Assembly: GCA_002706405.1 (NCBI GenBank)
Contig: PALN01000072.1
Span: forward strand, 1-64,000
Direction: 5' to 3'
Length of the DNA stretch: 64,000 bases
From: Rhodospirillaceae bacterium
GTDB lineage: Bacteria; Pseudomonadota; Alphaproteobacteria; Rhodospirillales; Casp-alpha2
A program made the translations under genes and the position numbers. Shown here in pieces: positions 36,027 through 52,856 of this stretch (position 1 is its first letter; each line of letters begins with the position of its first letter). The notes beneath the pieces were generated by a model, which saw only the letters and a list, made by a program, of their open reading frames with translations, made no database searches and was not told where the DNA came from.

Positions 36027-36101
36027 GGGCGCGTAGCTCAGCGGGAGAGCACTGCCTTCACACGGCAGGGGTCACAGGTTCAATCCCTGTCGCGCCCACC
36101 A
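36027..36101 (+). tRNA. tRNA-Val (CAC), island integration site
   Basis: A 75-base cloverleaf. The acceptor GGGCGCG pairs with CGCGCCC; anticodon stem CTGCC/GGCAG with loop TTCACAC and anticodon CAC at 36059-36061; T arm ACAGG-TTCAATC-CCTGT; CCA encoded. From the anticodon loop onwards the sequence repeats at 52857-52903, so the 3' half of the present gene is probably brought by the island while the promoter and 5' half are from the host. Confidence 0.97.
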
Positions 36102-36103
36102 TT
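36057..36103 (+). repeat. attL: left attachment repeat of the island
   Basis: 47 bases starting in the tRNA-Val anticodon loop and ending just past CCA. They match 52857-52903 at 45 of 47 positions. The two differences (A36076/T52876 and T36088/A52888) are the two partners of the third T-stem base pair. Confidence 0.93.
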
Positions 36104-36106
36104 CTA

Positions 36107-36136
36107 AACCCCCGGCCGCCGGGGGTTTTGGCTTTT
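36107..36136 (+). terminator. Terminator after tRNA-Val
   Basis: A 9-bp stem AACCCCCGG (36107-36115) with CCGGGGGTT (36119-36127), followed by TTGGCTTTTT. It is inside the island, so it came with the inserted tRNA 3' half. Confidence 0.75.
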
Positions 36137-36168
36137 TGGGCCATTGGTGCCCGCCCCCCCCAAATCAG

Positions 36169-36199
36169 GCTGAAGTGCGCCGGAAGTGCGGCGAAACAC
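36169..36199 (+). repeat. Left arm-type repeat (GAAGTGCG tandem)
   Basis: Two copies of GAAGTGCG in tandem at an 11-base step, followed by GAAACAC. A 31-base near copy lies at 52703-52733 in the same orientation, just inside the other end. These look like integrase arm-binding sites. The rest of 36200-36461 has no gene; a hairpin GCGGTT-N7-AACCGC lies at 36323-36341. Confidence 0.6.
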
Positions 36200-36461
36200 G
36201 ATGTTGTGTTTTTAATCACCCTCCAGCTACCAACTCTGGTGTGCCTTCTTGATTTCATAAAGGGCTGAGCGTAACTTCGTCTCTGTCGGTGCTTTGGCAG
36301 TGTCGCATAGAGAGGATCCGACGCGGTTTACTCAGAACCGCAGCGCGGCATGTGAGTCCGGGATTAGCAGCAAAGAGAGCAATGGTCCTACCGGCTCCTG
36401 TAAACACGGGAGTCGTGCGCCTGCTTGGTTCGACTCCGTAGACACATGAGGAGTTGGACCC

Positions 36462-36719
36462 ATGTTGAATCCCGAAACTAAAAGTGAAGGCGAAGTCGAA
36501 CAGCGATTCCTGACGACTGAGCAAGCCGCTCGATACCTTGGCATCGCGCCAAGCACTCTCAAAACCTCTCGATGCCGACCGGAATTGAACGGCCCCCCGT
36601 ACAAGAAATTCGGTAGGGCCGTTCGCTACGATATCCGTGATCTCGATGAGCATATGGAGGAGCGCAGCTATCGCGGCACCTATGAGTATCCCGGCAATAC
36701 CCAGAGCGAGGAGGCATGA
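36462..36719 (+). CDS. AlpA/excisionase-like HTH protein
   Basis: An 85-residue protein with a MerR-like winged helix of the HTH_17 kind: FLTTEQAARYLGIAPSTLKTSRCRP near residues 16-40, then GPPYKKFGRAVRYDIRDLDEHM. Such proteins act as recombination directionality factors or activators of the integrase in islands of this type. Its place beside the left attachment site supports this. The next gene starts 1 base after its stop. Regulation is suggested by the hairpin at 36323-36341. Confidence 0.85.
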   Translation: MLNPETKSEGEVEQRFLTTEQAARYLGIAPSTLKTSRCRPELNGPPYKKFGRAVRYDIRDLDEHMEERSYRGTYEYPGNTQSEEA

Positions 36720-36720
36720 G

Positions 36721-39102
36721 ATGACGAAGCGCCCTCATGATGAATCTGGGTTGGGTAGGTCCTCTTCCGCCAAGGGCAAGCCTTTCGGAGACACGGCCCG
36801 AGAGTTCCAAGAAAATGGATATGCCCCAATTCCCTTGAACGGTAAACAGCCTCTCGTAACCCAATGGCAAAGCTATTCCGCAAGCAACAGTCGGCCTTCT
36901 GATTCGACACTTCGATCTTGGATCCGAAATTTCAGCGGCGCGAACATAGGATTGGTGCTCGGAGGTCTGATAGATGACGCACACCGCTTGGCGGTTATCG
37001 ACATCGACGACGAGAGATTTGTCGGAATGTTAACCGCGATCCTCGGCGATGACCTAGTCGTCAAGAAAGGGAAAAAGGGTGCAAGTGCATTTGTGCGTGC
37101 ACATGCGGAGCTCAAGACGTCAAGGCTTACATCGCCCACCTTAGGCCACGTTGTTGACTTCCTTTCGAACAAAAGTCAGACGGTCGTGCCACCTTCGATC
37201 CACCCTGAAACGAAGCAGCCTTATACCTGGGTCGGTCGATCTCTTCTCGATGTGGACCGAGATGACCTTCCAGAGTTCAGCCTTCGAAACTTCAACTTGA
37301 TGAAAACAATCATCGAGTCTGAGCACACGGCAGCGATTCTTGAAGGTGACACGACCCATTGGCCAGTTCTACAGCTGAGCGGTCAATGCGTTCGCCATGG
37401 TGACGATGAGGAAATTGTCGCCGCGATCTCATCGCTGTTCCCGGCTGGATATGACGGCGACTCCCTTAAAGAGCTGCCTGGCATGGTCGCAGATGCTCGG
37501 GAAAAGGGATGGGATAATCCATCCGATAGCAGCGACTATGACCCCGGTGATGCCGGGCCTCGGCCCCTTGGTTACACCGAGCAACATACTTACATCTTCT
37601 ATCTGCCGACGCGGAGGCAAGTGATTCAACTATCTCCTCAACAACTAACAACACCGGCGGGCCTTTTGGGCTTGGAGGAACAGGAGTTCTGGGCGGAGCG
37701 ATATCCGAAGTTTGACAAGAATGGAAATCCGACCGGCGGCTTCACCTCCTTAATTGCGGGTAACAGTCTCATGAAGGCCTGCCGCAGAGCAGGGCCGTTC
37801 AACATGGCCCGCGTTCGGGGCAGGGGCGTGTGGCGTGAAGGCGATCGGATTATTGTCAATTTGACGGGAGATGTGCCCGAGGACGCCAAAAATGTTTATG
37901 TGTCGTTTGATCCGGTTGAGCTTGATGGCACTGTATCCGGCATAAATACCAGCGGCATCTTAGACGCCCTGTCCTTGCCTAACTGGCGGAATCCAGGCGA
38001 CCCGCTCCTCCTATTGGGGTGGATGTTCCTTGCGCCTATTTGCGGGGTGCTCGATTGGCGGCCACACATATTCATCGTCGGCGCGCGCAATACCGGTAAG
38101 ACGACGCTTGTAAACGGTATTACGAAACTCTTGTCTCCGCTGGCGGTGAGTCTAGATGGCCAGAGCACTGAGGCGGGGATCCGCCAAACCGTCGGCCCTG
38201 ACAGCCTTCCGATAATTCTCGATGAATTTGAAAGCGACGGGAAAACGTCGCGGTTGCTCAGCGTTCTCAAACTTGCGCGGAGTGCGTCGTCAGCTGAAGG
38301 GTACGTGGCACGGGGCACGCCGGAAGGCAGGGCTCTCCAGTTTAGCATTCGGTCGGCTTTCCTGTTCGCTGCGATCAACCCTACGATCGTCGGGGCGGCC
38401 GACGCGACACGAATAATCCAACTTCATTTGGACCGACACGACGACAACCCCGAGGTCGCTCGAGCTTTTAACCAGGCGATGCAGGAATTCGAGCAATATG
38501 CTCCAGGTTGGATTAAGGGGGCGATTTCATTTGCGCCTCAGGTTCCCAAGGCCGTTTCCACCTTCATTGGCGAAATGCCGCCGGGGGACAGTCGGCACAA
38601 CAAAAATATTGCAACGCTCCTGGCGGGGGCATTTTTGGCGCTTGAAGGTCGGACGCCGAACCCACTTGATGCTGCCGCCTGGTGCGAAAAGTATTTCGAT
38701 CTTATCGAGTCTCACGCTGAACCCCATAAAGACGATGACGCGGAAGACTGCCTTAATCTCCTGCTTGCGGCGATGAACGAGGGGGACAGTTTTGGAACCA
38801 TCTTGGCCACGGCGGCTCAGCAGGGGTCAGGGCATAACGCCTTGCCTGCAGTTGATGCTCTCCGTAACCACGGTATCAAATGGGTTGGCGACGGTTTCGT
38901 GGTGGCAAACAAGCACCCCGGCCTAGAGGCAATATTCGCTAAAACGCGGTGGGAAGGAAACGGTTGGAGCGCATCATTGCTCCGGATCGAAGGTGCTGTA
39001 CGCCGAGAGCCTGAGCGGTTCAATGGACCGCGACATCGAGGAGTATTCATCCCGGCGTCAGTCTTGGACGGTATCGAGCCAATGCCCCGTGGGCAATATT
39101 GA
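36721..39102 (+). CDS. Primase-polymerase/ATPase replication protein
   Basis: A 793-residue protein. Residues 20-220 resemble a prim-pol domain: GYAPIPLNGKQPLVTQWQSY, NIGLVLGG, the metal motif VIDIDDERF and HVVDFLSNKSQTVVPPSIHP. Residues about 415-620 are a DUF927/SF3-like ATPase: IFIVGARNTGKTTLVNGITKLL (Walker A near 455), LPIILDEFESDG (Walker B near 495), then FLFAAINPTIVGAADATRIIQLHLDR. The order is that of replication proteins of satellite phages and integrative plasmids. It is coupled to the HTH gene. It suggests the excised circle can replicate. Confidence 0.85.
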   Translation: MTKRPHDESGLGRSSSAKGKPFGDTAREFQENGYAPIPLNGKQPLVTQWQSYSASNSRPSDSTLRSWIRNFSGANIGLVLGGLIDDAHRLAVIDIDDERFVGMLTAILGDDLVVKKGKKGASAFVRAHAELKTSRLTSPTLGHVVDFLSNKSQTVVPPSIHPETKQPYTWVGRSLLDVDRDDLPEFSLRNFNLMKTIIESEHTAAILEGDTTHWPVLQLSGQCVRHGDDEEIVAAISSLFPAGYDGDSLKELPGMVADAREKGWDNPSDSSDYDPGDAGPRPLGYTEQHTYIFYLPTRRQVIQLSPQQLTTPAGLLGLEEQEFWAERYPKFDKNGNPTGGFTSLIAGNSLMKACRRAGPFNMARVRGRGVWREGDRIIVNLTGDVPEDAKNVYVSFDPVELDGTVSGINTSGILDALSLPNWRNPGDPLLLLGWMFLAPICGVLDWRPHIFIVGARNTGKTTLVNGITKLLSPLAVSLDGQSTEAGIRQTVGPDSLPIILDEFESDGKTSRLLSVLKLARSASSAEGYVARGTPEGRALQFSIRSAFLFAAINPTIVGAADATRIIQLHLDRHDDNPEVARAFNQAMQEFEQYAPGWIKGAISFAPQVPKAVSTFIGEMPPGDSRHNKNIATLLAGAFLALEGRTPNPLDAAAWCEKYFDLIESHAEPHKDDDAEDCLNLLLAAMNEGDSFGTILATAAQQGSGHNALPAVDALRNHGIKWVGDGFVVANKHPGLEAIFAKTRWEGNGWSASLLRIEGAVRREPERFNGPRHRGVFIPASVLDGIEPMPRGQY

Positions 39103-39126
39103 CCTTGCCCATTTGGCCCCGTCACG

Positions 39127-39720
39127 TCACATATCTAAGTAGATATGGTTCGGTATAGGGGGAGGGGTGCTATCGCCCCTCCCTCGATCATGTGGTCGCC
39201 GTCCTCCCAGTCGTGACGTGACCGCCCGCCGGGCATGATCTTGACGGGCTGCGTAGGGGTGCAGGCGGCGGACATGAGCTCCGGTACCGGGCGATCTCGT
39301 CATGCCCCTCGCTGGGCGCCACCTGGCGCGGAGTGGCGGCATCGGCACCCCATCTACCCGCCGCAGCTCGGACCAGGGCCAGCAAGCCGCCTCACCATTG
39401 GTTTGAGTCTTGTATGGCCGCACATGCGCGGAAATTCGGCTGGGCCCAGGGCGCCGGGAAATCCGTACCGTGCCTCTACGGCCATCTTCGGGCCCCCTGT
39501 GGGCTATTCTGGGCGGCGAGCTCGATCGCGTGTCGGGCCCTGGGGCGGGGCACGGAGCGTGTCGAATATAGGGCTCACCGCCGGGTCGGACGGTTATCCC
39601 GTGCTTCCTGCGCACTTCGAATACTGGATAATGGGTCAGAGCCCGTGGAAACCGGGGCCTTTGAAATTCCAGCCCCTACGTCAGGTGGGTACCCTGGTAT
39701 TGATAGGGGGGTGAGTGCTT
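39127..39720. other. GC-rich block with inverted repeats, no convincing gene
   Basis: About 600 bases of distinctly higher GC than the island genes on both sides. Long open frames on both strands overlap each other, are rich in Arg/Pro/Gly and show no domain, so they look like GC artefacts. Structure is visible: stem GGGCATGA (39231-39238) with TCATGCCC (39300-39307); palindrome CCGGTACCGG (39281-39290); GCGCCA-CC-TGGCGC (39316-39329); palindrome CTGGGCCCAG (39440-39449). A structured RNA or a replication origin is possible. Bases 39721-39902 hold AT-rich sequence, probably the promoter of the next operon. Confidence 0.5.
39131..39146. promoter_or_regulatory. Palindrome ATATCTA-AG-TAGATAT
   Basis: A perfect 7-bp inverted repeat with 2-base centre just after the primase stop. 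It is followed by a GC-rich hairpin (GGGAGGGG 39160-39167 with CCCCTCCC 39176-39183) that may end transcription. Confidence 0.4.
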
Positions 39721-39902
39721 GTTCGCGCCAGTTAATCTGCGCCTTTCGGGGGACCCAAGCTGCGCGATCGGGAAGTGACTTTTGAAATAGGACTTTCCCC
39801 CTATGTACGCTTTTACTTAAGTGTATATTACTCCAGGTGGTGGGGTGACAGACTGGTTATTCTACTTAAAATGTTCTCCAATTAGTCGCTCGGAGGGGGC
39901 TG

Positions 39903-40811
39903 GTGGTACCGAATTTTCAAGAATTGATGCGCCCTGTCTTGGAATGCGCGAGCAGTGGCGAAGTCAAGATCGGCGATGTGGTCGAGCAGGTCGCCGATAA
40001 GCTTGCTCTCTCCCAAGAGGATCGGGATCTCCTTCTTCCTAGTGGGAGGCAAACTCGTTTCGCCAACCGAGTTCATTGGGCAAAAAGTTACCTGAAACAG
40101 GCTGGTCTAGTTAAGGCGACCAAGCGAGGGCACTTCATCATAACAGACCGTGGCCGTCAGGCCCTGGATGATCAAGCCGTCGCCATTGATAAGTCTTATC
40201 TGGAACAGTTCGAAGAGTATCAAGATTTCCAGGCGCGGACGCGCGATACTGCCGATGGTGGGGCCGGGAATCAATCGGACTTAGATGACAGTGCTACGCC
40301 TGACGAAGTTCTTCGTGCGGCACACAAGAAGATCAACGCGGCACTTTCTGCGGAGCTTCTTGACCGTCTCCGTGACGCATCGCCAGCATTCTTTGAGAAC
40401 CTCATTGTCGAGTTGCTGCTCGCAATGGGGTACGGAGGTTCCTCCGAAGACGCCGGCCGGGCACTTGGACAGAGTGGCGACAATGGTGTTGACGGGGTGA
40501 TCGACCAAGACCCTCTTGGCGTGGATCAAATCTATGTTCAAGCAAAGCGGTACGCAGAGGGGAATAATATTGGGCCTGGGGCGATCCGCGATTTCTTCGG
40601 CGCTCTAAATTTGAAGCGGGCGCAAAAGGGAATTTTTGTCACGACCTCGTCATTCAGTCCCGAAGCCCAAAAAACGGCCGGGGACCTCGGAATGCGGATT
40701 GTGCTGATTGACGGCGCGGAACTCGCTCGGCTTATGATTCGTTACAATATTGGATGCAGGGATGAGGATGTGTTGCATCTGAAAAAGATCGACGAGGAAT
40801 TTTTTGAATAG
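39903..40811 (+). CDS. mrr: Mrr-like restriction endonuclease
   Basis: A 302-residue protein. The N-terminal winged helix (Mrr_N) covers residues 1-85 (LMRPVLECASSGEVKIGDVVEQVA; RVHWAKSYLKQAGLV). The C-terminal PD-(D/E)xK domain has FENLIVELLLAMGYGG, the catalytic Asp in SGDNGVDGVI near 197, and QIYVQAKRY near 213 as the QxK motif. It cleaves modified DNA in the family. GTG start at 39903 with GGAGGGGG ahead. It leads the hsd operon, 54 bases before hsdR. Confidence 0.92.
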   Translation: MVPNFQELMRPVLECASSGEVKIGDVVEQVADKLALSQEDRDLLLPSGRQTRFANRVHWAKSYLKQAGLVKATKRGHFIITDRGRQALDDQAVAIDKSYLEQFEEYQDFQARTRDTADGGAGNQSDLDDSATPDEVLRAAHKKINAALSAELLDRLRDASPAFFENLIVELLLAMGYGGSSEDAGRALGQSGDNGVDGVIDQDPLGVDQIYVQAKRYAEGNNIGPGAIRDFFGALNLKRAQKGIFVTTSSFSPEAQKTAGDLGMRIVLIDGAELARLMIRYNIGCRDEDVLHLKKIDEEFFE

Positions 40812-40865
40812 TCTGCAAGCCAATAATTATCGAGGCCTAAGGTACCGCGACGGGAGGCGCGAGGG

Positions 40866-43667
40866 GTGTCCAAAACTGAAGCTCAAACGCGTGCCGAACT
40901 AATTGATTCTCTGCTTGCTAAAGCGGGGTGGGATGTCGATGACCCCACTCAAGTTGTTCAAGAGTTCGATATCTTGACCTCTCTGCCTGAGGGAGTTGAA
41001 GAGCCGCGCACGCCATACGAGGGGCACCAATTCAGCGATTATGTCCTACTTGGAAAAGATGGACGTCCGCTTGCTGTCGTCGAAGCGAAAAGAACCAGTA
41101 AGGACGCCGCCCTAGGGAGGGAGCAGGCAAAGCAATACTGCTACAACATCCAAAATGATAAGGGGGGCGAGCTTCCTTTCTGTTTCTATACCAATGGGTA
41201 TGAGACGTTTTATTGGGATTTAGAAAATCATCCTCCTCGCAGGGTAGTTGGCTTTCCGACGCGGGACGATCTTGAGCGATTTCTTTACATTCGAAAAAAT
41301 CGAAAACCACTAACGGATGAGCTTATCAACCCGGACATTGCCGGAAGGGACTACCAAATCAGGGCGATCCGTTCCGTACTTGAAGGCTTGGAACAGAAAA
41401 AGCGGAACTTCCTTCTCGTGATGGCTACAGGAACGGGGAAGACGCGCACCTGTATCGCTTTGGTAGACGTATTAATGCGGGCGAGCCATGCGGAGAGAGT
41501 TTTGTTTTTGGTGGACCGGATTGCGCTACGCGAGCAGGCGCTTAATGCGTTTAAAGAATTTTTGCCTAACGAACCGAGATGGCCCAATGTTGGTGAAAAG
41601 CTAATTGCAAAAGACCGGCGGGTTTATGTTTCAACCTACCCGTCTATGCTCAACATAATACGGGATGAAAACCAAAACCTTTCGCCACATTTTTTTGACT
41701 TCGTCGTAGTCGATGAAAGTCATAGGTCGATCTACAACACTTACGGGGAAATTCTCGATTATTTCAAGGCCACAACCCTCGGTCTGACGGCGACGCCTAC
41801 AGACATAATCGATCACAACACCTTCCAACTTTTTCATTGCGGCGACGGTATCCCGACCTTCGCCTTCACATATGAAGAGGCGGTGAACAACGTTCCGCCT
41901 TACCTCTGTAATTTTCAAGTTATGAAAATTCAGACCCGCTTTCAGATGGAGGGCATTAGCAAGCGTACGATCTCGCTTGAGGACCAAAAGAGGTTGATGC
42001 TCGAAGGGAAAGAGATCGAGGAAATCAATTTCGAGGGAATGGAACTAGAAAAGCGAGTAATCAATCGCGGTACAAACGCGTTGATCGTCCGGGAGTTCAT
42101 GGAGGAGTGTATCAAGGATCCGAACGGCGTTCTTCCGGGGAAGACGATCTTCTTCTGCTCCTCCATCCAACATGCGAGGCGGATCGAAGAAATTTTTGAC
42201 AGCCTCTTTCCTGAACACAGTGGTGAATTGGCGAAAGTGCTCGTCTCAGATGATCCTCGCGTCTACGGAAAAGGTGGGCTGTTAGACCAGTTTACCAACA
42301 ACGACATGCCTCGAATTGCAATCAGTGTCGGCATGCTTGATACCGGTGTTGACGTGCGCGAAGTAGTCAATCTGGTATTCGCCAAGCCGATCTATTCGTA
42401 TACGCGTTTCTGGCAGATGATTGGTCGTGGGACCCGGTTACTCGAGGAAAAAAAGTTAAAACCCTGGTGCACCGAAAAAGACGTATTCCTAATCCTGGAT
42501 TGCTGGGACAACTTCGAATACTTCAAGCTCGAGCCAAAAGGGAAGGAGCAGAAACCTCAGATCCCTCTTCCGGTTCGGCTAACCGGTCTTCGTCTGGACA
42601 AAATTGAAAAAGCGCTCGACAAAGGTCGCGCTGAAATTGTTGGGCGAGAAGTTTCCAAGCTTCGCAAGCAGATTTCCGAACTTCCAAAAGAGTCAGTCTT
42701 TGTCAAAGAAGCTTCATCGTCGTTGAGCGCACTTGATGAAGAAAATTTTTGGGCGGCCCTCAACCATCAAAAAATTGAGTTCTTGCGCCAAGAGATAAAG
42801 CCGTTGTTCCGCACAGTCTCCGAAGTGGATTTTAAGGCGATGCGCTTTGAAAAGGATGTCCTTGAGTTCTCTCTTTCGAAATTGACTCAGGATGACGCCC
42901 TTGCAGAAACCGTTAAGGCGGCAATAGTTGAGCAGATTGGCATGCTCCCGCTCAGCATACATTTTGTCAAAGCTGAAGAAGCCTTAATTCGGCAATCCCA
43001 AACGGACAGTTTCTGGTCAGTCGCTGACGAAGAAGCGTATGACACACTGACCGCAAAGCTCGGCCCACTCATGAAATTTCGTGAAAAGCCCGGCGCAGAA
43101 TTGGGGCCTGTACACCTCGACCTCAAAGACGAAATTCACCGAAAAGAGTTTGTCGAGTTTGGGCCGGAAAACGAAGCAGTCAGCACTTCCCGTTATCGGG
43201 AGATGGCAGAGGCCCTGATTTCTAATCTGGTGGAGGAAAATCACATCCTCCAGAAAATTCGGGACGGCCATGAAGTGACGCCAGAAGAGGCTAAAGCGCT
43301 CGCCGATCTCTTACATGCTGAGCACCCGCACGTTACAGAAGACCTTCTCCGCCAAGCCTACAAAAACCGGAAGGCTCATTTTATCCAATTCATCCGCCAT
43401 ATCCTAGGGATCGAAACTTTAAAAAGCTTTCCTGAAACAGTCAGTGAAGCTTTTGACCGGTTCATCAAAGATCATTCGAACCTAACGACACGACAACTGG
43501 ATTTCCTAGGGTTGCTCAAAAACTTCATCATCGATCGGGAAACGGTCGAAAGAAAAGACCTTATCAAGTCTCCATTCACAGTTATCCATCCGCAGGGGAT
43601 ACGAGGGGTTTTCAGCCCAGCTGAAGTAGAAGACATATTACAACTGACTGAGGAATTGGCCGCTTGA
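40866..43667 (+). CDS. hsdR: Type I restriction enzyme, R subunit
   Basis: A 933-residue motor/nuclease. The N-terminal nuclease domain shows the PD-(D/E)xK pattern YVLLGKDGRPLAVVEAKRTSKD near residue 60-80. The SF2 translocase has Walker A VMATGTGKTRTC near 186, VDESHRS near 281, GLTATPTD and a late motif QMIGRGTRL near 517. The C-terminal region matches the EcoEI-type R family and binds the methylase core. It translocates and cuts unmethylated DNA. GTG start at 40866 behind a GGGAGG site. It precedes hsdM by 37 bases. Confidence 0.95.
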   Translation: MSKTEAQTRAELIDSLLAKAGWDVDDPTQVVQEFDILTSLPEGVEEPRTPYEGHQFSDYVLLGKDGRPLAVVEAKRTSKDAALGREQAKQYCYNIQNDKGGELPFCFYTNGYETFYWDLENHPPRRVVGFPTRDDLERFLYIRKNRKPLTDELINPDIAGRDYQIRAIRSVLEGLEQKKRNFLLVMATGTGKTRTCIALVDVLMRASHAERVLFLVDRIALREQALNAFKEFLPNEPRWPNVGEKLIAKDRRVYVSTYPSMLNIIRDENQNLSPHFFDFVVVDESHRSIYNTYGEILDYFKATTLGLTATPTDIIDHNTFQLFHCGDGIPTFAFTYEEAVNNVPPYLCNFQVMKIQTRFQMEGISKRTISLEDQKRLMLEGKEIEEINFEGMELEKRVINRGTNALIVREFMEECIKDPNGVLPGKTIFFCSSIQHARRIEEIFDSLFPEHSGELAKVLVSDDPRVYGKGGLLDQFTNNDMPRIAISVGMLDTGVDVREVVNLVFAKPIYSYTRFWQMIGRGTRLLEEKKLKPWCTEKDVFLILDCWDNFEYFKLEPKGKEQKPQIPLPVRLTGLRLDKIEKALDKGRAEIVGREVSKLRKQISELPKESVFVKEASSSLSALDEENFWAALNHQKIEFLRQEIKPLFRTVSEVDFKAMRFEKDVLEFSLSKLTQDDALAETVKAAIVEQIGMLPLSIHFVKAEEALIRQSQTDSFWSVADEEAYDTLTAKLGPLMKFREKPGAELGPVHLDLKDEIHRKEFVEFGPENEAVSTSRYREMAEALISNLVEENHILQKIRDGHEVTPEEAKALADLLHAEHPHVTEDLLRQAYKNRKAHFIQFIRHILGIETLKSFPETVSEAFDRFIKDHSNLTTRQLDFLGLLKNFIIDRETVERKDLIKSPFTVIHPQGIRGVFSPAEVEDILQLTEELAA

Positions 43668-43704
43668 TCGGCGGATCAGCTGCGAAACATAAGGTGCTGG
43701 CACA

Positions 43705-45363
43705 ATGCTGCAGAACAATCCCGAGCTTAGAAATTTAATCGACCAACTCTGGAACAAATTCTGGAGTGGCGGCATTTCAAATCCACTGACGGCGATCGAG
43801 CAAATCACATACCTGCTGTTCATGAAACGGCTCGACGACTTGGATCAGAAACGGAAGGCCGACGCAGAATTTACGGGCGAAGCTTACGTTTCGAAATTTT
43901 CTGGCACTTGGATTCCGCCCGAACACCAAGGCAAAAACGATGCTGGATCCTATGCGATCGACAAAGACACATTACGCTGGAGCTATTTTAAACGCATGCC
44001 CGCTGGCGAAATGCTCACCCACGTACAGACAAAGGTATTTCCGTTTCTAAAAGATATGAACGGCGCCGAATCCAATTTCACTCATCATATGCAGAACGCT
44101 GTTTTCATCATCCCAAAGTCCAGCCTGATGGTGGAGGCGGTCAAAACCATCGACGAGATTTTTGAGTTGATGGAGAACGAATCCGCGGAGAAAGGGCAGG
44201 CCTTCCAAGATATCCAAGGCGATGTGTACGAATACTTGCTGTCCGAAATCGCGACCGCCGGTAAGAACGGCCAATTTCGAACGCCCCGACACATCATCAA
44301 ATTGATGGTCGAATTGGTCCAGCCGCAACTAGGTCACAAAATCGCCGACCCTGCTTGCGGTACGGGCGGTTTTTTGTTGGGCGCCTATCAATACATTGTC
44401 ACCCAGCTCGCCATGAAAGCGGGCGCAAAGAATGTAAAGCCAGATGAAGATGGCTTCGTCCGGTCTTCTGTGGCGGCAAGCCTAACTGAGAAAGTTCAGG
44501 CTACTTTGGATAGCTCTTTAATTGGCTATGACATTGACAGCACGATGGTGCGCCTCGGTCTGATGAATTTGATGATGCACGGTATCGATGAACCGCAGAT
44601 CGACTACAAGGACACTCTCAGCAAGGGATACGATGAAGAGGCTAAATACGACATCATCATGGCCAATCCGCCTTTCACTGGTAGCATCGATAGAGGTGAC
44701 ATCAGCGAACGTCTTCAAATATCAACAACCAAAACTGAGCTGTTGTTTGTAGAAAATATTTATCGGATTCTTAGAAAAGGCGGAACTGCGGCGGTGATCA
44801 TACCTCAAGGTGTGTTGTTCGGTACTGGCCGGGCATTTGTGAGCCTCAGGCGGCTATTGGTTGAAAGTTGTGATTTGAAGGCTGTAATTACCATGCCGAG
44901 CGGCGTCTTTAAGCCATATGCTGGTGTGAGTACTGCCATCCTGATTTTCACAAAGATTTGGGGGGTGGATGACAAAGTGAGTAAACCGGGGACGGACCAC
45001 GTGTGGTTCTTCGGCATGAAAGATGATGGATACTCGCTTGATGATAAGCGCATAAAGAAAGAAGGAAGCGGAGACCTGCAGCATATCGTGGCTAGTTTTC
45101 ACTCACGGGAACCAAAGACTGATTCTGATCGTAAACTTCAATATTTCTTCGTCCCTCGCGAAGAAATTGAGGATAAAGACTTTGATCTCAGCTTTGGCAG
45201 CTACAACGAAGATATATATGAGGAAATTGAATACGAGGACCCGAAAGAGATCATCGAAAATCTTTTAGAAACTGAAATAGGTGTGATGAAAGAAGCAGAA
45301 TTAGAAAAAATTCAGTCTGGGATCGTTCGCGAACTTCTGGACTTGAGGGGGATGATCAAATGA
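43705..45363 (+). CDS. hsdM: Type I restriction enzyme, M subunit
   Basis: A 552-residue adenine-N6 methyltransferase. The N-terminal HsdM_N helical region is followed by TAGKNGQFRTPRHIIKLMVEL, SAM motif DPACGTGGFLLGAY near residue 214 and catalytic NPPF near 320. The acidic C-terminal tail ends with a helix that would contact HsdS. Methylates the target and protects it. Its stop overlaps the hsdS start by 4 bases (ATGA), coupling M and S synthesis. Confidence 0.96.
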   Translation: MLQNNPELRNLIDQLWNKFWSGGISNPLTAIEQITYLLFMKRLDDLDQKRKADAEFTGEAYVSKFSGTWIPPEHQGKNDAGSYAIDKDTLRWSYFKRMPAGEMLTHVQTKVFPFLKDMNGAESNFTHHMQNAVFIIPKSSLMVEAVKTIDEIFELMENESAEKGQAFQDIQGDVYEYLLSEIATAGKNGQFRTPRHIIKLMVELVQPQLGHKIADPACGTGGFLLGAYQYIVTQLAMKAGAKNVKPDEDGFVRSSVAASLTEKVQATLDSSLIGYDIDSTMVRLGLMNLMMHGIDEPQIDYKDTLSKGYDEEAKYDIIMANPPFTGSIDRGDISERLQISTTKTELLFVENIYRILRKGGTAAVIIPQGVLFGTGRAFVSLRRLLVESCDLKAVITMPSGVFKPYAGVSTAILIFTKIWGVDDKVSKPGTDHVWFFGMKDDGYSLDDKRIKKEGSGDLQHIVASFHSREPKTDSDRKLQYFFVPREEIEDKDFDLSFGSYNEDIYEEIEYEDPKEIIENLLETEIGVMKEAELEKIQSGIVRELLDLRGMIK

Positions 45364-46898
45364 TCGATCTCGTCTCAATCGAAGAATGTTGTTTTGTATT
45401 CAATGGTAAGACCCCATCAAGGTCCGAGCAGAGAAGATCGGGACGCCCAATACTCAAAATCAAAGATATTGATGAGGCTGGGAAATTTAGAGGTAAATTT
45501 GAGTCATTTGTTGATGAAAGTTTTTACGAAAAACATTCAAAAAAAGTTTTGAAACGAGGTGACACCGTAATACTCAATGCCGCCCATAACAGGGATTATG
45601 TTGGAAATAAGATTGCGCGAATTGGTCCTGAATTGGATGGTGTAATAGCAACAGGCGAATGGTTGATCATTCGACCTAAGAATATTGATCAAAACTTTAT
45701 TTACCACTTCATTAAATCCCCAAAGGGGCGTGAAGGATTAAAAAGGATCGTAAGGGGGATACACCTATATCCGAGAGATGTTGGCCGATTAACAATTCCT
45801 TTTCCAGAAAATATAGATCAAGAACGAATATCTTATATTCTTAACAACGTTGACAGCCTAATACTAATTAGGAAGAAAGCGATTGGAGAACTAGACAGAT
45901 TTATCACAAGTTTTTTTGTGAAAATGTTTGGTGATCCTGTTCGAAATGAGAAAGCGTGGGAAGTAAAACCACTAGGCCAATTAGGAACCTTGGACCGTGG
46001 AGTTTCTAAGCATCGCCCTAGAAATGCCCCGGAGTTGCTGGGCGGAGATTACCCACTGATACAAACAGGCGATGTTGCAAATTCCGGTATATACATTGAA
46101 GAATATACTCAGTCTTATTCCGATCAAGGGCTCGCCCAGAGCAAATTGTGGCCCAAGGGTACACTCTGCATAACTATTGCAGCGAACATTGCTAAGACAG
46201 CTATTCTAAATTTCGAAGCGTGCTTTCCCGATAGTGTTGTCGGTTTTTTAGCGTCGAAAAATGAGTCGAATAACCTTTACGTTTATGCGTTATTTCAATT
46301 CCTCCATAAAATACTTGAAAAAAAAGCCCCAGAAGCTGCGCAAAAAAATATAAACCTAAAAATCCTAAGGCAATTGTCGGTGCCCTGCCCGCCAATCGAG
46401 CACCAAAACAAATTTTCTGCAGTCATCGAAAAAGTGTACCTGCTTCAGAGAGGGTATAGCGAAAACCTTACAAATTTAGAGGAACTTTACGGCGCGATAA
46501 GTCAAAAAGCATTTACGGGAAGACTTGATTTATCTGGGATTCCGGCTGTTGGCGAAGCCGATTTCGTTGGGCGGTCTGAGCTGTCGGCGACAGCGGACGT
46601 CGAGTCGCCTCTTGACGAGTACCCTATGGATAAGGCGGAAGGTCGAGAAAGACTTCTACGTCAGTGGTTTGATGAACTTATTGGCGGTTCAGAGCACGAG
46701 ACTGACTTAACGTTTGATCAGTTCTGGCAAGCCGTCCAGGTTCGGGCGGTCGAGTATATGGGGGACGACGACAAGCCTTTTTCGACAACGGAATACGATC
46801 TATATCGCGAATGGGTCCTGGACGGTCTGCGCGAAGGGAAAATCAAACAAGAATTCGACGAGGGAAAAAATCTCGTTACGCTCCGGGTGGCCGGATAA
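45360..46898 (+). CDS. hsdS: Type I restriction enzyme, S subunit, with C-terminal extension
   Basis: A 512-residue specificity subunit. Two target-recognition domains are separated by conserved helices (ISYILNNVDSLILIRKKAIGELDRFITSFFVKMFGDP near 155-195; a second helix set ending GAISQKAFTGRLDL near 390). The first 390 codons are strikingly AT-rich; from about 46,525 the composition returns to that of neighbouring genes. The extra C-terminal 115 residues are acidic (ERLLRQWFDELIGG, FDQFWQAVQVRAVEYM) and are not part of a usual S subunit of about 400 residues. Exchange of the recognition part by recombination is inferred. Confidence 0.92.
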   Translation: MIDLVSIEECCFVFNGKTPSRSEQRRSGRPILKIKDIDEAGKFRGKFESFVDESFYEKHSKKVLKRGDTVILNAAHNRDYVGNKIARIGPELDGVIATGEWLIIRPKNIDQNFIYHFIKSPKGREGLKRIVRGIHLYPRDVGRLTIPFPENIDQERISYILNNVDSLILIRKKAIGELDRFITSFFVKMFGDPVRNEKAWEVKPLGQLGTLDRGVSKHRPRNAPELLGGDYPLIQTGDVANSGIYIEEYTQSYSDQGLAQSKLWPKGTLCITIAANIAKTAILNFEACFPDSVVGFLASKNESNNLYVYALFQFLHKILEKKAPEAAQKNINLKILRQLSVPCPPIEHQNKFSAVIEKVYLLQRGYSENLTNLEELYGAISQKAFTGRLDLSGIPAVGEADFVGRSELSATADVESPLDEYPMDKAEGRERLLRQWFDELIGGSEHETDLTFDQFWQAVQVRAVEYMGDDDKPFSTTEYDLYREWVLDGLREGKIKQEFDEGKNLVTLRVAG

Positions 46899-46902
46899 TC
46901 TG

Positions 46903-48711
46903 ATGCAGCTGCTGCGATTGAAGATCACAGACCCTAAAGGTTTTAGGAGCCTACAATCAGGTTTCGAATACGTCTTTCGGCGCGAATGGGACTTAGAGGA
47001 CGACAAACAACAGTCCTACGAATTTGAACCGTTTGTCTGTGCTGGCCCGAATGGTAGCGGTAAATCCAATCTCCTTGAGGTCTTGGCTGCAATTTTCTAC
47101 CAACTCGAGCTATTGCGAGTTCAGCGAAGCTTCCTTCCCTCGGCGCTTATGCCCGGATCAGATGGGGATGGCTTGCCTCCGCCAGATGTGCTGCCAGATG
47201 GTTTTGAACTCGAATACCTAATTCGAGTGCCGTCAGGAGCTAGGAAAAGTGTAGACAAAACCCATGCTCACATAACGGTCGCGAAGCTTGCAGGCCAGTC
47301 CCCTGAGATTTTTTGGAACAATTCGGCAGATTTTAATACAGACAACGCGCGTTCAATCGATGGCGTGGCCTCTTTTGATGATCTGCCGAGTGTGGGCGCC
47401 GTGGGTGGGGTTAGCGCGCGTGAGCGTGATTTTCTGTTGCCTCAATATGTTCTTGGTTATTCATCCGGCGAAAATGAAATTCTAAGTCTTCCTTTTTTCA
47501 AGATGCGGTTTGTCCAATATGACGAATATTGGAACAGCTTGAAAAATCAACTGCCGTATCCTGGGCGGCCAGAGACTCGACTGGCCTATATGGACGGCTC
47601 TTTCAGCCAGGCAATCTTACTGTGCAATCTTCTTTTCCATGACGAAGGAACATTGTTTCCTCTGATTGAGGAAACAGGCCTGCAAGCCCTAAACAGCTTC
47701 CAGATCATTATAAAACGGAGCATAGAGGTCCCCCGTGACGTCGCGGCGGATTTCGGTGACGGACATCCAGCTGTCTCCATCGACGAGGACAGCGGTCGGG
47801 CAGCAGTCAATTTAGTAAGCCTTTTAGACGGGCGGATTGACGAAGAGAGTAGCGAAGAGTTCGGACCGATTTTGGCGCGACTGAAGCGGTGCGCTACCTG
47901 CCGTTTTGAAGACGAGGAGACCGACACTCTTTATCTCGATTACTTCGTAAACCAAGCGACGAAGGATGCCTTCCAAGCAAATTTCCAAGATGCGGTTGAG
48001 CTTTTCCAAGCATTGCAAGTTCTTCTGGCGCTTAATCTCTATTCCGTCAGCGAAAATCTCAAAACGGACCTTTATCGCTCAAGCAGCCACTATGTGACTG
48101 AGACTGTACCCACCTTGGCTTCTGATGAGCGGGTAATGCGGATGAAGCATTTTTGGGTTTCGAAGCGAGGGGTCAAAGATCAAGTCCTATTGAAAAGCCT
48201 TTCCGACGGCGAGCACCAGATGCTGCACAGTCTTGGCTTGTGCTTGTTGTTCAAGGAGGCCTCGGCACTCTTTTTGTTAGATGAACCAGAAACCCATTTT
48301 AATCCCGATTGGCGATCCAGTTTCGTGACCCGCCTAAAGCAATGCTTTAACGGCGCTTCTAACGATTGCGAACGCGAGATGTTTGTGACTACCCATACGC
48401 CCTTCTTGATTTCAGACAGCCGCCCGGAGCGGGTTTTGGTTTTCAAGAATGAAGATAGGGCGGTTTCGGTCAGCCGTCCCGATTATCAAACGCTCGGTGC
48501 GTCAATCAACAAGATCACGATGAAGACCTTCGGAAAGAAAGAGACGATTGGAGGAGTGGCGCAGGCAAAACTGGATGCATTGAGGCGTCGCTTCGAAAGC
48601 GATGAGGACAAAGAACAAATCCTGCAGGAGCTAAATGCCGAACTTGGTGACTCAGTAGAAAAAATCACGCTAATCAACTCGATCCTCGAAAGTATGGAGG
48701 ATGCGCCCTGA
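46903..48711 (+). CDS. R-M-associated AAA/ABC-type ATPase (Septu PtuA-like)
   Basis: A 602-residue SMC/ABC-like ATPase. Walker A GPNGSGKSNLLEVLAAIFYQ is near residue 47; an insert of about 350 residues follows; the signature LSDGEHQMLHSLG is near 431, Walker B LFLLDEPETHFNPDW near 455 and the switch His TTHTPFLISD near 497. A C-terminal helical tail of 80 residues follows. Family knowledge: such ATPases sit beside type I R-M genes or pair with an HNH protein in Septu. It starts 4 bases after hsdS and its stop shares a base with the HNH start (TGATG). It probably senses phage and drives the nuclease. Confidence 0.88.
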   Translation: MQLLRLKITDPKGFRSLQSGFEYVFRREWDLEDDKQQSYEFEPFVCAGPNGSGKSNLLEVLAAIFYQLELLRVQRSFLPSALMPGSDGDGLPPPDVLPDGFELEYLIRVPSGARKSVDKTHAHITVAKLAGQSPEIFWNNSADFNTDNARSIDGVASFDDLPSVGAVGGVSARERDFLLPQYVLGYSSGENEILSLPFFKMRFVQYDEYWNSLKNQLPYPGRPETRLAYMDGSFSQAILLCNLLFHDEGTLFPLIEETGLQALNSFQIIIKRSIEVPRDVAADFGDGHPAVSIDEDSGRAAVNLVSLLDGRIDEESSEEFGPILARLKRCATCRFEDEETDTLYLDYFVNQATKDAFQANFQDAVELFQALQVLLALNLYSVSENLKTDLYRSSSHYVTETVPTLASDERVMRMKHFWVSKRGVKDQVLLKSLSDGEHQMLHSLGLCLLFKEASALFLLDEPETHFNPDWRSSFVTRLKQCFNGASNDCEREMFVTTHTPFLISDSRPERVLVFKNEDRAVSVSRPDYQTLGASINKITMKTFGKKETIGGVAQAKLDALRRRFESDEDKEQILQELNAELGDSVEKITLINSILESMEDAP

Positions 48712-49757
48712 TGCTGGTTCCATACGAATATGTTCCCCATCAAATGGAGAGAATGCAGGAGTTCATAAACTTCATATTTGATGTGTGGTGTTCGGCTCCC
48801 AGCGGCGCCCCGTATAGTCTGAATCTCTACAACGGGAACCCTGATCTCAAAGAAATTATGACGGCGTTCCATTATGCCGACACTCAGATTGCCGACTTTT
48901 ACAGCAGCAATATTGAAGCCATTTATCGGCATTTTTCGCAATTGGATCAGGGGCAGATTGACCAACTGAGACTATGGTTCGATGCCAATAATCAGATTGA
49001 GGCGGCGTGTTCCGACAAGGACCTGCAGATTGCCAGGTACGCAGAAGTTGAGGCTCTGGACGCGAATTTAGCCGCCGCATTGCGGAAGTTCTTTACTGGA
49101 ATTTATGACAAAGTTGGGGCGGCGGATCTTGTCCAGAAAATCGGTACGATTTCAGCACACCATGACGCGTTCGTGCTGGTGAACAATTTTGGAAAATGTC
49201 CGTTCTGCGGACTGTCCGATTTGAAAGGCGAGTATCACGAGAAACGGGAGGCTTATGACCATTATCTCCCCAAGGCCTTATATCCGTTCAACTCGATCAA
49301 CTTTCGTAACCTCGTGCCGACATGTCACGAATGCAATAGCGTCTATAAACTTCAAAAAGATCCCGCTTTTGGAGAAGGTGCACGACGAAAGTCATTTTTT
49401 GCTTATTCAGCGGTCCCCTCAGATATCAGGATCAAAGTGAAATTAGCATCACCAAACTATGAGAGCATTTCTCCGGATGACATTGTATTCGAGTACGGGC
49501 CGCCCGAGAAAACCGAGGAAATTGCGACTTGGTGTGATTTATATGGAATTGATGAGCGGTACAAAGCGAAATGCTGCGGGGAAAATGATGGCAAATACTG
49601 GGTGGCTCAGGTTCTTGATGAATGTGCAAATGAGGGAGTTACGCCGGATCAGTTAATGGCGCGGATTAGAAGGCAGGCGGAAAAATCGCCCTTGGCCGAA
49701 AGTAATTTTCTCAAGAAAGCTTTCCTCGAGGGCTGCAAGGAGGCAGGGTTTTTTTAG
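48711..49757 (+). CDS. HNH endonuclease, partner of the ATPase (Septu PtuB-like)
   Basis: A 348-residue protein. The nuclease core has zinc Cys pairs CPFCG (near residue 163) and CHECN (near 204) around the ββα-metal motif EAYDHYLPKALYPFNSINFRNLVPTC. The N-terminal 150 residues are helical and not recognised; the C-terminal 80 are mixed. It is longer than typical PtuB (about 200-250). Start overlaps the ATPase stop (TGATG), so equimolar synthesis is likely. The small membrane gene converges on it with a 4-base overlap. Confidence 0.88.
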   Translation: MLVPYEYVPHQMERMQEFINFIFDVWCSAPSGAPYSLNLYNGNPDLKEIMTAFHYADTQIADFYSSNIEAIYRHFSQLDQGQIDQLRLWFDANNQIEAACSDKDLQIARYAEVEALDANLAAALRKFFTGIYDKVGAADLVQKIGTISAHHDAFVLVNNFGKCPFCGLSDLKGEYHEKREAYDHYLPKALYPFNSINFRNLVPTCHECNSVYKLQKDPAFGEGARRKSFFAYSAVPSDIRIKVKLASPNYESISPDDIVFEYGPPEKTEEIATWCDLYGIDERYKAKCCGENDGKYWVAQVLDECANEGVTPDQLMARIRRQAEKSPLAESNFLKKAFLEGCKEAGFF

Positions 49758-50035
49758 CCCACGTTCTTGTAACTCCGCCGCCTTACAACAAATCTGTGGG
49801 CTGATATGAGAATAATCGCTGGTAAGGCGCCCCAGATAATTCCGAGGATCGCGATCGCAGGTATCAGGACGATTTTTACTGGTAAATATGGGATCGTCGG
49901 TAACGCTGAGATTTGGTCTAGGTAATCGAAAGTTATTCCTATCCACTCAACATTTTCAGCGAGCCAAATTAGACAGACCCAAGCGAAGTAAAAAAACCAA
50001 CTGCAAAACAATACGGTGCCGATCAAAGCGGCCAC
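49754..50035 (-). CDS. Small membrane protein, function unknown
   Basis: 93 residues with hydrophobic helices near 3-25 and 52-82 and a basic C-terminus (RFVVRRRSYKNVG), so it would span the membrane with its tail inside. Start is GTG with a weak ribosome site, so the gene is less sure than its neighbours. It lies between the ATPase-HNH pair and the XRE gene, and may be an accessory or immunity-like protein. Bases 50036-50213 hold no other gene. Confidence 0.45.
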   Translation of the reverse strand: MAALIGTVLFCSWFFYFAWVCLIWLAENVEWIGITFDYLDQISALPTIPYLPVKIVLIPAIAILGIIWGALPAIILISAHRFVVRRRSYKNVG

Positions 50036-50213
50036 TTTTTCCCCAAAAATTTCTCGAAAAGGGCGAGGGTCGTCGCTTAATTCGGTATTTGGTTTATTAG
50101 GCAGTGAGACGATCCAATCTTCCGGTAATTTTGATAGGAAGATTACAATAATAACATGAGTCGAAATATTACATCAATGGTCAGGCCCGGAGGATCGCTC
50201 CAATATTTGGGGC

Positions 50214-50558
50214 ATGGCGTCCAATGTTGGCGAAAAGCTAGGCGAGCGCATTAAGCGCTTGAGAGAAGCGAAAGGGATGACGCAGGCGCAACTGGCGTCT
50301 GCGATCGGCAAATCTGTCGAAACGGTGTCAAACTTCGAGAGAGGAAAGACGATTCCGGGAGTTCTCACGCTTGACCAAGTCGCGGAAAAGCTCGGTTGTC
50401 CTATAGGTGCTTTGTTCGAAGATGTTGAAGGCAGGCGCGAACCTCCTAAGCTTTCCAAACATGCGGCGCGGGTGGCGAATGCGGTCGATGTCTTGCCCGA
50501 AGAGGATCTGGAAGTCCTGGCGAGTATTGTCCGCGTGTTTGAGGGCCGGCGGCGCTAG
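50214..50558 (+). CDS. XRE-family transcriptional regulator
   Basis: A 114-residue protein with an N-terminal Cro/CI helix-turn-helix: LGERIKRLREAKGMTQAQLASAIGKSVETVSNFERGKTIPGVLTLDQVAEKL, residues 9-60, and a helical tail. It likely controls the defence cassette or its own promoter. It converges on the LRAT-fold gene with 4 bases between stops. Confidence 0.88.
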   Translation: MASNVGEKLGERIKRLREAKGMTQAQLASAIGKSVETVSNFERGKTIPGVLTLDQVAEKLGCPIGALFEDVEGRREPPKLSKHAARVANAVDVLPEEDLEVLASIVRVFEGRRR

Positions 50559-50562
50559 GCTT

Positions 50563-51012
50563 TTATCGTTCAAACGAATTGACCAGCATGAGGCTGCCGA
50601 GGCCCATAGCTCCGGCTAACAGCAAGGATTGGCGGACGCTAAGTTTCTTGGCGGTGGCAATCAAGACTCCCAAACTTATGCCCCCTAATGCAGCGGTGAT
50701 TTGTTTGCTCGACGATTTTCCCTCAACAAGAAGATTGGCGAAGTGCTCGCAATTGAAGTCGAACAATGAATAAGGTTTTCCGACGAAAGACCTGGCCATG
50801 GCGAAGAGACGTGCCGGGTCGATAGGGTTGGCTGGCGGCATCCAATGAATCGCCTTTCCGCCTGAAAACGCCTCAAATGTCTCGATACAGACCATCCCGT
50901 TCTTCTTCGAGTTATGGACTACCTGCCCGTTTCCAAGATACCGGCCGTGATGTCGGATGGGGGGGAGATCGATCAAAAGGCGCGATCCAACTGGAATTTG
51001 GCATGCGTTCAT
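50563..51012 (-). CDS. LRAT/NlpC-P60-fold protein with membrane tail
   Basis: 149 residues. Fits the lecithin retinol acyltransferase-like family (PF04970): a His in PPIRHHGRYLG near residue 21-22 and the hallmark NCEHFAN with catalytic Cys88. Two hydrophobic segments follow, about 105-121 and 129-145, so it is probably membrane-bound at its C-terminus. Such proteins are thiol acyltransferases or hydrolases on lipids. It is divergent from the membrane-anchored XRE gene at 51081, with a shared palindromic operator between. Confidence 0.8.
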   Translation of the reverse strand: MNACQIPVGSRLLIDLPPIRHHGRYLGNGQVVHNSKKNGMVCIETFEAFSGGKAIHWMPPANPIDPARLFAMARSFVGKPYSLFDFNCEHFANLLVEGKSSSKQITAALGGISLGVLIATAKKLSVRQSLLLAGAMGLGSLMLVNSFER

Positions 51013-51045
51013 GGTAATTTATCCTTTAAAATATTTTGCGCTCTT

Positions 51046-51061
51046 AACGCATATATGCGTT
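51046..51061. promoter_or_regulatory. 16-bp palindromic operator AACGCATATATGCGTT
   Basis: A perfect palindrome in the 68-bp gap between the divergent LRAT-fold and XRE genes. A further half-like copy (AAGGCATATATT) follows at 51063-51074. It is the natural binding site for the XRE protein encoded at 51081. Confidence 0.65.
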
Positions 51062-51080
51062 TAAGGCATATATTGATTGA

Positions 51081-51455
51081 ATGTCAATGGATAACCTGAA
51101 ACCCGGAACAACCTACGCAGCGGTTCTTGGCCGCGTACTAGCTCACCGTCGGGAACAATCCGGACTGGAGCAAAGGGATTTGGCAGCTGCCCTGGGATTG
51201 GGGCAATCGGCCTGGTCGCGGATCGAGCGCGGTGATTCTGTTATCAATGTGGAGCAACTACGAACGGCCGCCAAAACTCTTGGCCTGCCGTCGAGCAGTT
51301 TGCTGCAGGAGGCTGACGAGGCCGCAGACGCCCTGGCGGCCCGCGATGTTCAGGTCCAAACATCGAAATCCGTAAAGTCAGACAGCAACGCTATAGCGCT
51401 GATCAGCTTGGCGGCGCTGACGGTTCTGGTCGTTGCAGCCCTCACCAAGAAATAG
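51081..51455 (+). CDS. XRE regulator with C-terminal membrane anchor
   Basis: 124 residues. The helix-turn-helix is near 19-70 (LAHRREQSGLEQRDLAAALGLGQSAWSRIERGDSVINVEQL), then a Glu/Ala-rich linker and a final hydrophobic helix NAIALISLAALTVLVVAALTKK (104-124), so it is tail-anchored in the inner membrane. A DNA-binding protein held at the membrane next to a membrane LRAT-fold enzyme suggests a sensing pair. It ends directly at the integrase stop (adjacent bases, opposite strands). Start: ATG 51081 or 51087. Confidence 0.85.
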   Translation: MSMDNLKPGTTYAAVLGRVLAHRREQSGLEQRDLAAALGLGQSAWSRIERGDSVINVEQLRTAAKTLGLPSSSLLQEADEAADALAARDVQVQTSKSVKSDSNAIALISLAALTVLVVAALTKK

Positions 51456-52682: not shown

Positions 52683-52702
52683 CTTGTCACTCCGAGTTCG
52701 GT

Positions 52703-52733
52703 GCTGAAGTGCGTCGGAAGTGCAGGAAAACAC
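52703..52733 (+). repeat. Right arm-type repeat (GAAGTGCG tandem)
   Basis: Near copy of 36169-36199 in the same orientation, just upstream of the integrase start. See that entry. Confidence 0.6.
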
Positions 52734-52743
52734 ACCGAATATC

Positions 52744-52772
52744 ACCTTGGGAATATTCCCCGGCACCTTGGG
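52744..52772. promoter_or_regulatory. Palindrome GGGAATATTCCC with flanking CACCTTGGG repeats
   Basis: The 12-bp palindrome at 52749-52760 lies inside two direct copies of CACCTTGGG (52744-52752 and 52764-52772, 20 bp apart). It is just upstream of the integrase and probably controls it. Confidence 0.45.
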
Positions 52773-52807
52773 TGACAATCTAAATTATTGGAAGGAAACG
52801 GCTTTTC

Positions 52808-52837: not shown

Positions 52838-52856
52838 CGTGATATTTTCTGAGACG

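Follow-up and report, generated by a model that had tools for sequence, protein, structure and literature searches.

The window, as we term the whole 64,000-nt stretch that was analysed (contig PALN01000072.1 of a Rhodospirillaceae bacterium, positions 1 to 64,000), carries a 16.8-kb island (36057-52903) at a tRNA-Val gene, bounded by 47-nt repeats at 36057-36103 and 52857-52903. The gene order is AlpA-like protein, Prim-Pol replication protein, non-coding block, Mrr, HsdR/M/S and a PtuA-like ATPase with its HNH partner, and between the HNH gene and the integrase two small regulators flank a small minus-strand ORF. The GC content of the island, about 0.40 to 0.60 in 1-kb windows, agrees with the initial annotation, in which the surroundings of the block had been described as AT-leaning. 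The main features of the island are:

36027-36101, plus strand: tRNA-Val (CAC), the integration site (ARAGORN and Rfam)
36057-36103: left attachment repeat, 47 nt, a 96% identical direct repeat of 52857-52903
36462-36719, plus strand: AlpA/excisionase-like helix-turn-helix protein (Pfam HTH_17, 5.7e-8; PHROG excisionase, 5.4e-8)
36721-39102, plus strand: replication protein with a Prim-Pol domain and a P-loop (helicase-like) C-terminal region (Pfam Prim-Pol, 4.3e-15)
39903-40811, plus strand: Mrr-type restriction endonuclease (Pfam Mrr_cat, 3.4e-34; PADLOC, 8e-80)
40866-43667, plus strand: type I restriction enzyme HsdR (Pfam/PADLOC-type domain and defence matches)
43705-45363, plus strand: type I methylase HsdM (same basis as HsdR)
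45360-46898, plus strand: type I specificity subunit HsdS (same basis as HsdR)
46777-48711, plus strand: PtuA-like ATPase, Septu-like (PADLOC PtuA, 3.2e-49; start codon picked in the analysis)
48711-49757, plus strand: HNH protein, PtuB-like (PADLOC PDC-M01B, 9e-15; PtuB, 3.7e-8)
51456-52778, minus strand: integrase (PHROG integrase, 5.5e-67)
52857-52903: right attachment repeat, 47-nt direct repeat, the pair of 36057-36103

The replication protein matched PHROG DNA primase (2.8e-66), with its P-loop region matching PHROG primases, and Prim-Pol was the sole domain matched in Pfam. A structure prediction from five sequences had a pLDDT of 37, i.e., it gave no reliable model of the helicase-like or C-terminal region. 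At 46777-49757, the Septu-like pair, with the PtuA-like ATPase preceding the HNH protein, is located behind the type I restriction-modification genes. The small minus-strand ORF (50563-51012) had neither PADLOC nor PHROG matches and contains an NCEHF motif that we take to be reminiscent of LRAT/NC-domain proteins.

An island with the same gene order, likewise at tRNA-Val (CAC) and flanked by 51-nt repeats, is present in a second genome (G062, locus L028) that belongs to the same family as the window genome and to a different genus. The replication proteins of the two islands are 61% identical. The G062 island measures 16.5 kb between its repeats; as judged by eye, its HsdS looks different, and ORFs resembling the Septu-like pair are kept in the same order.

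The block at 39103-39902 lies, as initially annotated, between the replication protein and the defence operon that starts with Mrr, and it consists of the following parts:

39121-39222: predicted origin, a 102-bp stem-loop with mirrored tandem repeats (arms, fold, conservation in G062)
39121-39130, plus strand: two tandem GTCAC repeats (GTCACGTCAC)
39155-39188: G-rich/C-rich hairpin between the arms (hairpin arms 39155-39167 and 39176-39188; similar hairpin in G062)
39213-39222, minus strand: the two repeats in mirror orientation (plus-strand letters GTGACGTGAC)
39223-39399: variable stretch, 177 nt, which holds the GGGCATGA stem and corresponds to 49 nt in G062 (alignment)
39400-39775: conserved non-coding 3′ module, shared with G062
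39604-39681: best conserved 78 nt of the 3′ module, 73% identical (DNA match, E 1.8e-5), with a GGGGC/GCCCC inverted pair
39776-39902, plus strand: leader of the defence operon, richer in AT, which has a single promoter-like site, 39845-39872 (consensus match alone)

The description of this block as GC-rich and free of a coding frame was confirmed by its GC profile, codon-position GC and Pfam. Per 50 nt, its GC content is 0.62-0.78 between 39153 and 39602 and falls to 0.42-0.46 past 39803. Codon-position GC is flat in the three long ORFs of the block (0.68/0.67/0.64, 0.65/0.64/0.68 and 0.64/0.66/0.60), compared with 0.61/0.46/0.59 in the Prim-Pol gene and 0.66/0.39/0.55 in Mrr, and two of the long ORFs (39127-39615 on the minus strand and 39235-39711 on the plus strand) had zero Pfam matches. 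Codon-type substitution in a homologue, which had been named as an observation that would refute the non-coding reading, is absent: in the best conserved 78 nt, substitutions relative to G062 are spread evenly over the three phases (8/7/6), compared with 37/15/92 over a 150-codon stretch of the replication gene. Peptides translated from the gaps of the two islands did match each other (E 4.6e-7 on the plus strand, 53% over 34 positions; 1.6e-6 on the minus strand, 44% over 50), with E-values that come from a tiny sequence set without composition correction. These matches lie on opposite strands of the same DNA and need gaps that are absent from the 78-nt DNA alignment; matches on both strands together with the flat substitution phase point to conservation of the DNA and not to a gene. 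A coding gene in the block was therefore rejected on the basis of flat codon-position GC, the blank Pfam result for two ORFs and even substitution phases against G062.

The inverted repeats that had been named for the block exist, but they occur at or near chance level. The named stem GGGCATGA (39231-39238)/TCATGCCC (39300-39307) is present in the sequence, as are two 10-bp palindromes at 39281 and 39440, compared with a mean of 0.94 in shuffles (P 0.24). There are six 8-bp inverted repeats with arms at most 150 nt apart, as opposed to 1.9 in shuffles (P 0.01) and 3.5 per 800 nt in the rest of the window. Folded as RNA, the whole 800 nt scored little better than shuffles (z -1.2 on the plus and -1.3 on the minus strand, 20 shuffles each), and the GGGCATGA stem falls in a stretch that is largely missing from G062, the sole homologous island found.

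The non-random feature is instead the element at 39121-39222, just left of the repeat cluster described initially. It begins 18 nt past the stop codon of the replication gene (9 nt past it in G062), and its arms, GTCACGTCAC at 39121-39130 and GTGACGTGAC at 39213-39222, form a perfect 10-bp match 82 nt apart, each arm consisting of two tandem 5-mers, so that an outer stem of 10 bp is followed by internal hairpins. Windowed RNA folding of 39103-39222 gave z -4.7 on the plus and -3.0 on the minus strand, and the G062 counterpart was weaker (-2.4 on the plus strand). Mirrored paired 5-mers at equal spacing occurred in none of 421 other 300-nt tiles of the window and in none of 300 shuffled copies of the focal 300-nt stretch. 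By itself the element is weak, with four GTCAC units in the stem and a low copy number: the top 6-mer count of 3 (P 0.81) and the longest inverted repeat of 10 (P 0.10) are within the range of shuffles, and the DNA between the arms has a GC content of 0.56 and is not AT-rich. The 10-mer GTCACGTCAC is found nine times on either strand of the window genome, two of these in the element, and six times in G062, three of them in the element; extra GTGAC copies are located at 39775 and 39845.

In G062, the gap between the replication gene and the defence operon is 658 nt long and has kept both the 5′ arms with their hairpin and the 3′ module. The arms, CGTCACGTCACGTCAC and GTGACGTGACG, enclose a G-rich hairpin and hold three and two repeat copies, i.e., one extra repeat relative to the window. 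This conservation bears on the reading of the block as the remnant of a gene or as functionless GC-rich filler that arose by chance, which would suit the variable middle of 177 nt, mostly missing from G062, and the named stems at or near chance level. Parts of each flanking module are nevertheless shared across two genera (70% over 107 nt and 73% over 78 nt), close to the level of the replication-gene DNA (67% over 997 bp), and their substitutions have no codon periodicity, which makes this reading very improbable.

Copies beyond these two islands were sought by several routes. A DNA search with the block in 317 genomes of the order gave matches in four, namely the window genome itself, G062, G109 and G144, of which the weak matches in G109 and G144 were rejected as chance, with open frames running across each. 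A sequence model of the 3′ module strongly matched the window and G062 alone among 314 order genomes, and the window alone among 327 class genomes (other order members included). With E up to 1, weak model matches appeared in a further 27 genomes of the order and 23 of the class, the best at E 9e-4 per genome (314 genomes) in G025, of the same family. The matches in G025 and G019 (L071 and L077), two genomes of that family, share GGTTG, TGGCCG and ATGCGCG (TGGCCG-NNN-ATGCGCG) with the start of the module; these were rejected with some doubt, their frames being open for 178-601 codons and probably coding. The other weak matches were rejected as scattered similarity (ten alignments inspected, those of G025 and G019 among them). 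Comparison of the window block with plasmids and phages, and of the G062 block with plasmids, gave no useful match; in two contig scans, a few chosen peptides of the replication protein matched no relative, and viral pattern searches gave nothing useful, the matches of two of them lacking the rest of the element.

The 3′ module is not accounted for by the 102-bp origin. Its fixed pieces common to the window and G062 are CTTGTATGGCCG, CTTCCTGCGCACTTC, GGGGC-loop-GCCCCTACGT and GGGGACCCAAGC. It could belong to the origin as a second component (e.g., for priming), regulate the defence operon, or encode a small RNA. The adjoining leader (39776-39902) has an GTGTATAT-A/T-ACTC stretch in common with G062, and the promoter-like match at 39845-39872 is a possible, putative promoter of the defence operon upstream of Mrr. 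The initial annotation had also offered a large structured RNA, and a structured non-coding RNA regulating island or defence genes, formed by the whole block or by 39400-39775, would be consistent with the conservation of the 3′ module at 73% over 78 nt without codon-type substitution and with its conserved GGGGC/GCCCC inverted pair. At the gathering threshold, Rfam had zero matches in the block, and below it the best matches were weak (E 0.042 for the block, to an implausible IRES family, and 0.74 for G062). The whole-block z of about -1.2 also argues against this reading, as does the restriction of strong module matches to the window and G062 in the order and to the window in the class. A check of conserved structure among homologues, as proposed initially, did find a second copy in G062, but the base pairs common to the two copies numbered at most 9, within the range of shifted controls (mean 2.2, maximum 15; two copies compared). 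Thus, a structured RNA spanning the whole block was rejected on the Rfam results above and below the gathering threshold, the folding of the entire block and of windows within it, and the shared-pair count; we consider the RNA reading overall improbable, while the 3′ module may contain a smaller RNA.

The downstream regions of the genes for distant relatives of the replication protein were compared as well. The first relatives comprised 27 loci, that is, 20 matches in 18 order genomes (the window and G062 included), three from the class and four viral contigs, of which 26 or 25 had enough downstream sequence to be usable: L029 (108 nt downstream) was excluded throughout, and L055 (123 nt) was counted for inverted repeats and left out for 6-mers and geometry. 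From 31 plasmid and phage matches, 17 were chosen for diversity and 16 were used, L107 lacking a usable gene end; L005 was excluded (22 residues matched). The strict geometry rule was set post hoc; it asks for a tandem pair of 5-mers whose mirror image recurs with the same spacing 20-140 nt away, within 300 nt downstream. It held downstream of 11 of 41 loci, compared with 1 of 211 control genes (Fisher 6e-9) and with none of the 41 regions upstream of the same genes (2e-4), P values that are optimistic because the rule was written after the loci had been seen and the loci are partly related. The 11 positives are the window, G062, four other genomes, three Arsenophonus plasmids, Pararheinheimera phage KLER1-1 and Bdellovibrio phage phi1422; among them, the window and G062 are kin, as are the three Arsenophonus plasmids, with the held-out L112 as a fourth. 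The remaining 30 of 41 loci, including the large phages L099 and L100 and the viral contigs L087-L090, do not have the strict geometry.

Simpler measures were enriched as well. Downstream inverted repeats scoring at least 12 were found at 8 of 26 loci versus 4 of 183 controls (6/16 versus 0/28 in the plasmid and phage set), and a 6-mer with at least five copies at 9 of 25 versus 4 of 183 (7/16 versus 1/28). A held-out set of six further matches was hand-picked before their sequences were seen. With the geometry rule unchanged, two of these six, Synechococcus phage MinM1 and the fourth Arsenophonus plasmid (L112), were positive compared with none of 36 controls (P 0.017, in a small set), and the 6-mer rule gave 4/6 versus 2/36 (P 0.002), one of the four being L110, whose top 6-mer is not a GTTAC-type word. 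The held-out large phage L113 had neither mirrored geometry nor repeats.

The census also bears on a reading in which 39121-39222, lying between replication gene and defence operon, acts as a terminator of transcription or as an operator; the location directly after the stop codon and the strong G/C hairpin would suit this reading. Among 22 loci, the downstream regions folded as DNA were more stable than those of 110 control genes (P 6e-5), but controls reached lower values, and very stable downstream folds sometimes occur in control genes (lowest z -7.2), which is compatible with a terminator or operator. A search of 38950-39990 for terminator-like sites carrying a T-run came up empty, intrinsic terminators do not look like tandem repeats mirrored across an 82-nt loop, and the geometry followed a single one of the 211 control genes; we therefore regard a terminator or operator as unlikely.

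Several described origins resemble the element in part. Replication of the Sulfolobus plasmid pRN1 is reported to require a stem-loop of 100 nt downstream of its Prim-Pol gene; the stem measures 21 nt at 75 °C, there is no iteron structure, and the loop starts 54 bp past the gene (PMC4234260). The likeness lies in a stem-loop of about 100 nt directly after a Prim-Pol replication gene (102 nt in the window, z -4.7 for 39103-39222), whereas the outer arms in the window are 10 bp of tandem repeats without a long continuous stem and start 18 nt past the gene. As to the SF3 helicase and winged-helix domains typical of pRN1-type proteins, the P-loop region of the window protein matches PHROG primases and its model has the low pLDDT of 37. 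For SaPI, Rep recognises iterons immediately 3′ of its gene; for SCCmec, Cch2 binds direct repeats of 5-nt units located after the gene that encodes it (PMC7581432). The shared arrangement is an initiator gene followed by a short-repeat origin on an integrative island, with 2+2 GTCAC units in the window; the difference is that these repeats are mirrored as a stem-loop and the DNA between the arms has a GC content of 0.56. The SaPI origin has an AT-rich unwinding region between two iteron sets. Binding of iterons through a C-terminal DNA-binding domain of the initiator is a trait of the SaPI/SCCmec type, for which the same pLDDT of 37 applies to the window protein, and profile searches of solved structures gave P-loop-level matches only, with no SaPI or SCC initiator among them.

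Two further systems are described in PMC4234260. The Bordetella phages BIP-1/BPP-1 have a large stem-loop 3′ of the primase-helicase gene as their proposed origin, and the BIP-1 repeats found elsewhere are not considered the origin; in P4, a single primase-helicase protein, alpha, with a TOPRIM-type primase acts at origin repeats (PMC4234260). The window shares with the former the stem-loop 3′ of the replication gene, and with the latter a single predicted primase-helicase protein and candidate origin repeats, the primase being of the TOPRIM type in P4 and Prim-Pol here. The Bordetella phage covered by the census, PY223 (L096), does not fit the mirrored-repeat rule. The element lies where the pRN1 and SaPI/SCC origins lie; its stem-loop recalls that of pRN1, and its repeats those of SaPI/SCC. 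It fits neither type: its stem is shorter than that of pRN1, the DNA between its arms is not AT-rich, and neither the structure model nor the searches of solved structures gave a link to these initiators. Among the matches listed from literature at the level of titles and abstract openings, with subscription papers mostly outside, mirrored tandem iterons forming a stem-loop 3′ of a gene of the P-loop family are not described. An origin that is ordinary in kind, with an unusual mirrored-repeat layout recurring in part of a larger family, appears plausible.

The arrangement of its repeats, its location, its retention in a second island and the enrichment of this arrangement after related replication genes make 39121-39222 the probable replication origin of a putatively excisable 16.8-kb island with Mrr, type I restriction-modification and a Septu-like pair, predicted from sequence to be worked by the upstream Prim-Pol/P-loop protein. 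The initial guess of an origin would accordingly be placed at 39121-39222, where position, conservation in G062 and recurrence downstream of relatives support it, but the stems listed for it, at or near chance level, do not. We infer that the Prim-Pol/P-loop protein encoded directly upstream would bind the GTCAC repeats, with one assembly per mirrored set, and would open the roughly 80 bp between the arms, which can also fold into hairpins; after excision of the island, the Prim-Pol domain would then prime synthesis at the opened site. If so, an anonymous non-coding block becomes a testable origin, and an island whose defence genes comprise restriction-modification and a Septu-like pair may replicate after excision instead of sitting passively in the genome. 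A rule of mirrored tandem repeats after the replication gene would moreover link the pRN1 stem-loop with the SaPI iteron origins and could serve to find, from sequence, the origins of further islands, phages and plasmids, unclassified ones among them.

The N-terminal parts of the repeat-bearing relatives differ, with Prim-Pol in the window and G062 and TOPRIM or CHC2 in L098, L103, L091 and L097 (some of these assignments lying below the Pfam cut-off), and at E 0.01 Pfam found zero domains in the repeat-bearing L034, L035, L032, L053, L056, L093 and L095; hence, what stays constant beside the repeats appears to be the C-terminal region with the P-loop. Several of the repeat words fit a GT-any-(A/C)-C core (GTTAC, GTGCC, GTCCC, GTACC and GTCAC), as noticed post hoc. 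A tentative generalisation, which we hold to be possible with the balance leaning somewhat against it, is that a broad family of P-loop replication proteins, with Prim-Pol, TOPRIM/CHC2 or no recognisable primase, might use one type of origin directly 3′ of its own gene, in which the stem-loop arms are mirrored tandem repeats of a varying word (GTCAC, GTTAC, GTCCC, GGCAC and others), and that the 3′ module of the window might be a second replication control element.

In the Arsenophonus nasoniae plasmids L093-L095 and L112, rows of repeats of the TTTGTTAGCC, TTTGTAATGC, TTTGTTACCC and TTTACAACCC types lie beside a stem-loop after the replication gene, and the repeat word varies between the plasmids of this one species. 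In the three held-out Roseobacter plasmids L108-L110, from Leisingera and Phaeobacter and about 40 kb in size, mirrored geometry is absent and scattered GTTAC-type repeats occur in a 327-nt gap. These plasmids carry a related P-loop protein, with a separate CHC2 primase gene adjoining in L109 and L110, and the P-loop protein together with the repeat gap is possibly their replicon.
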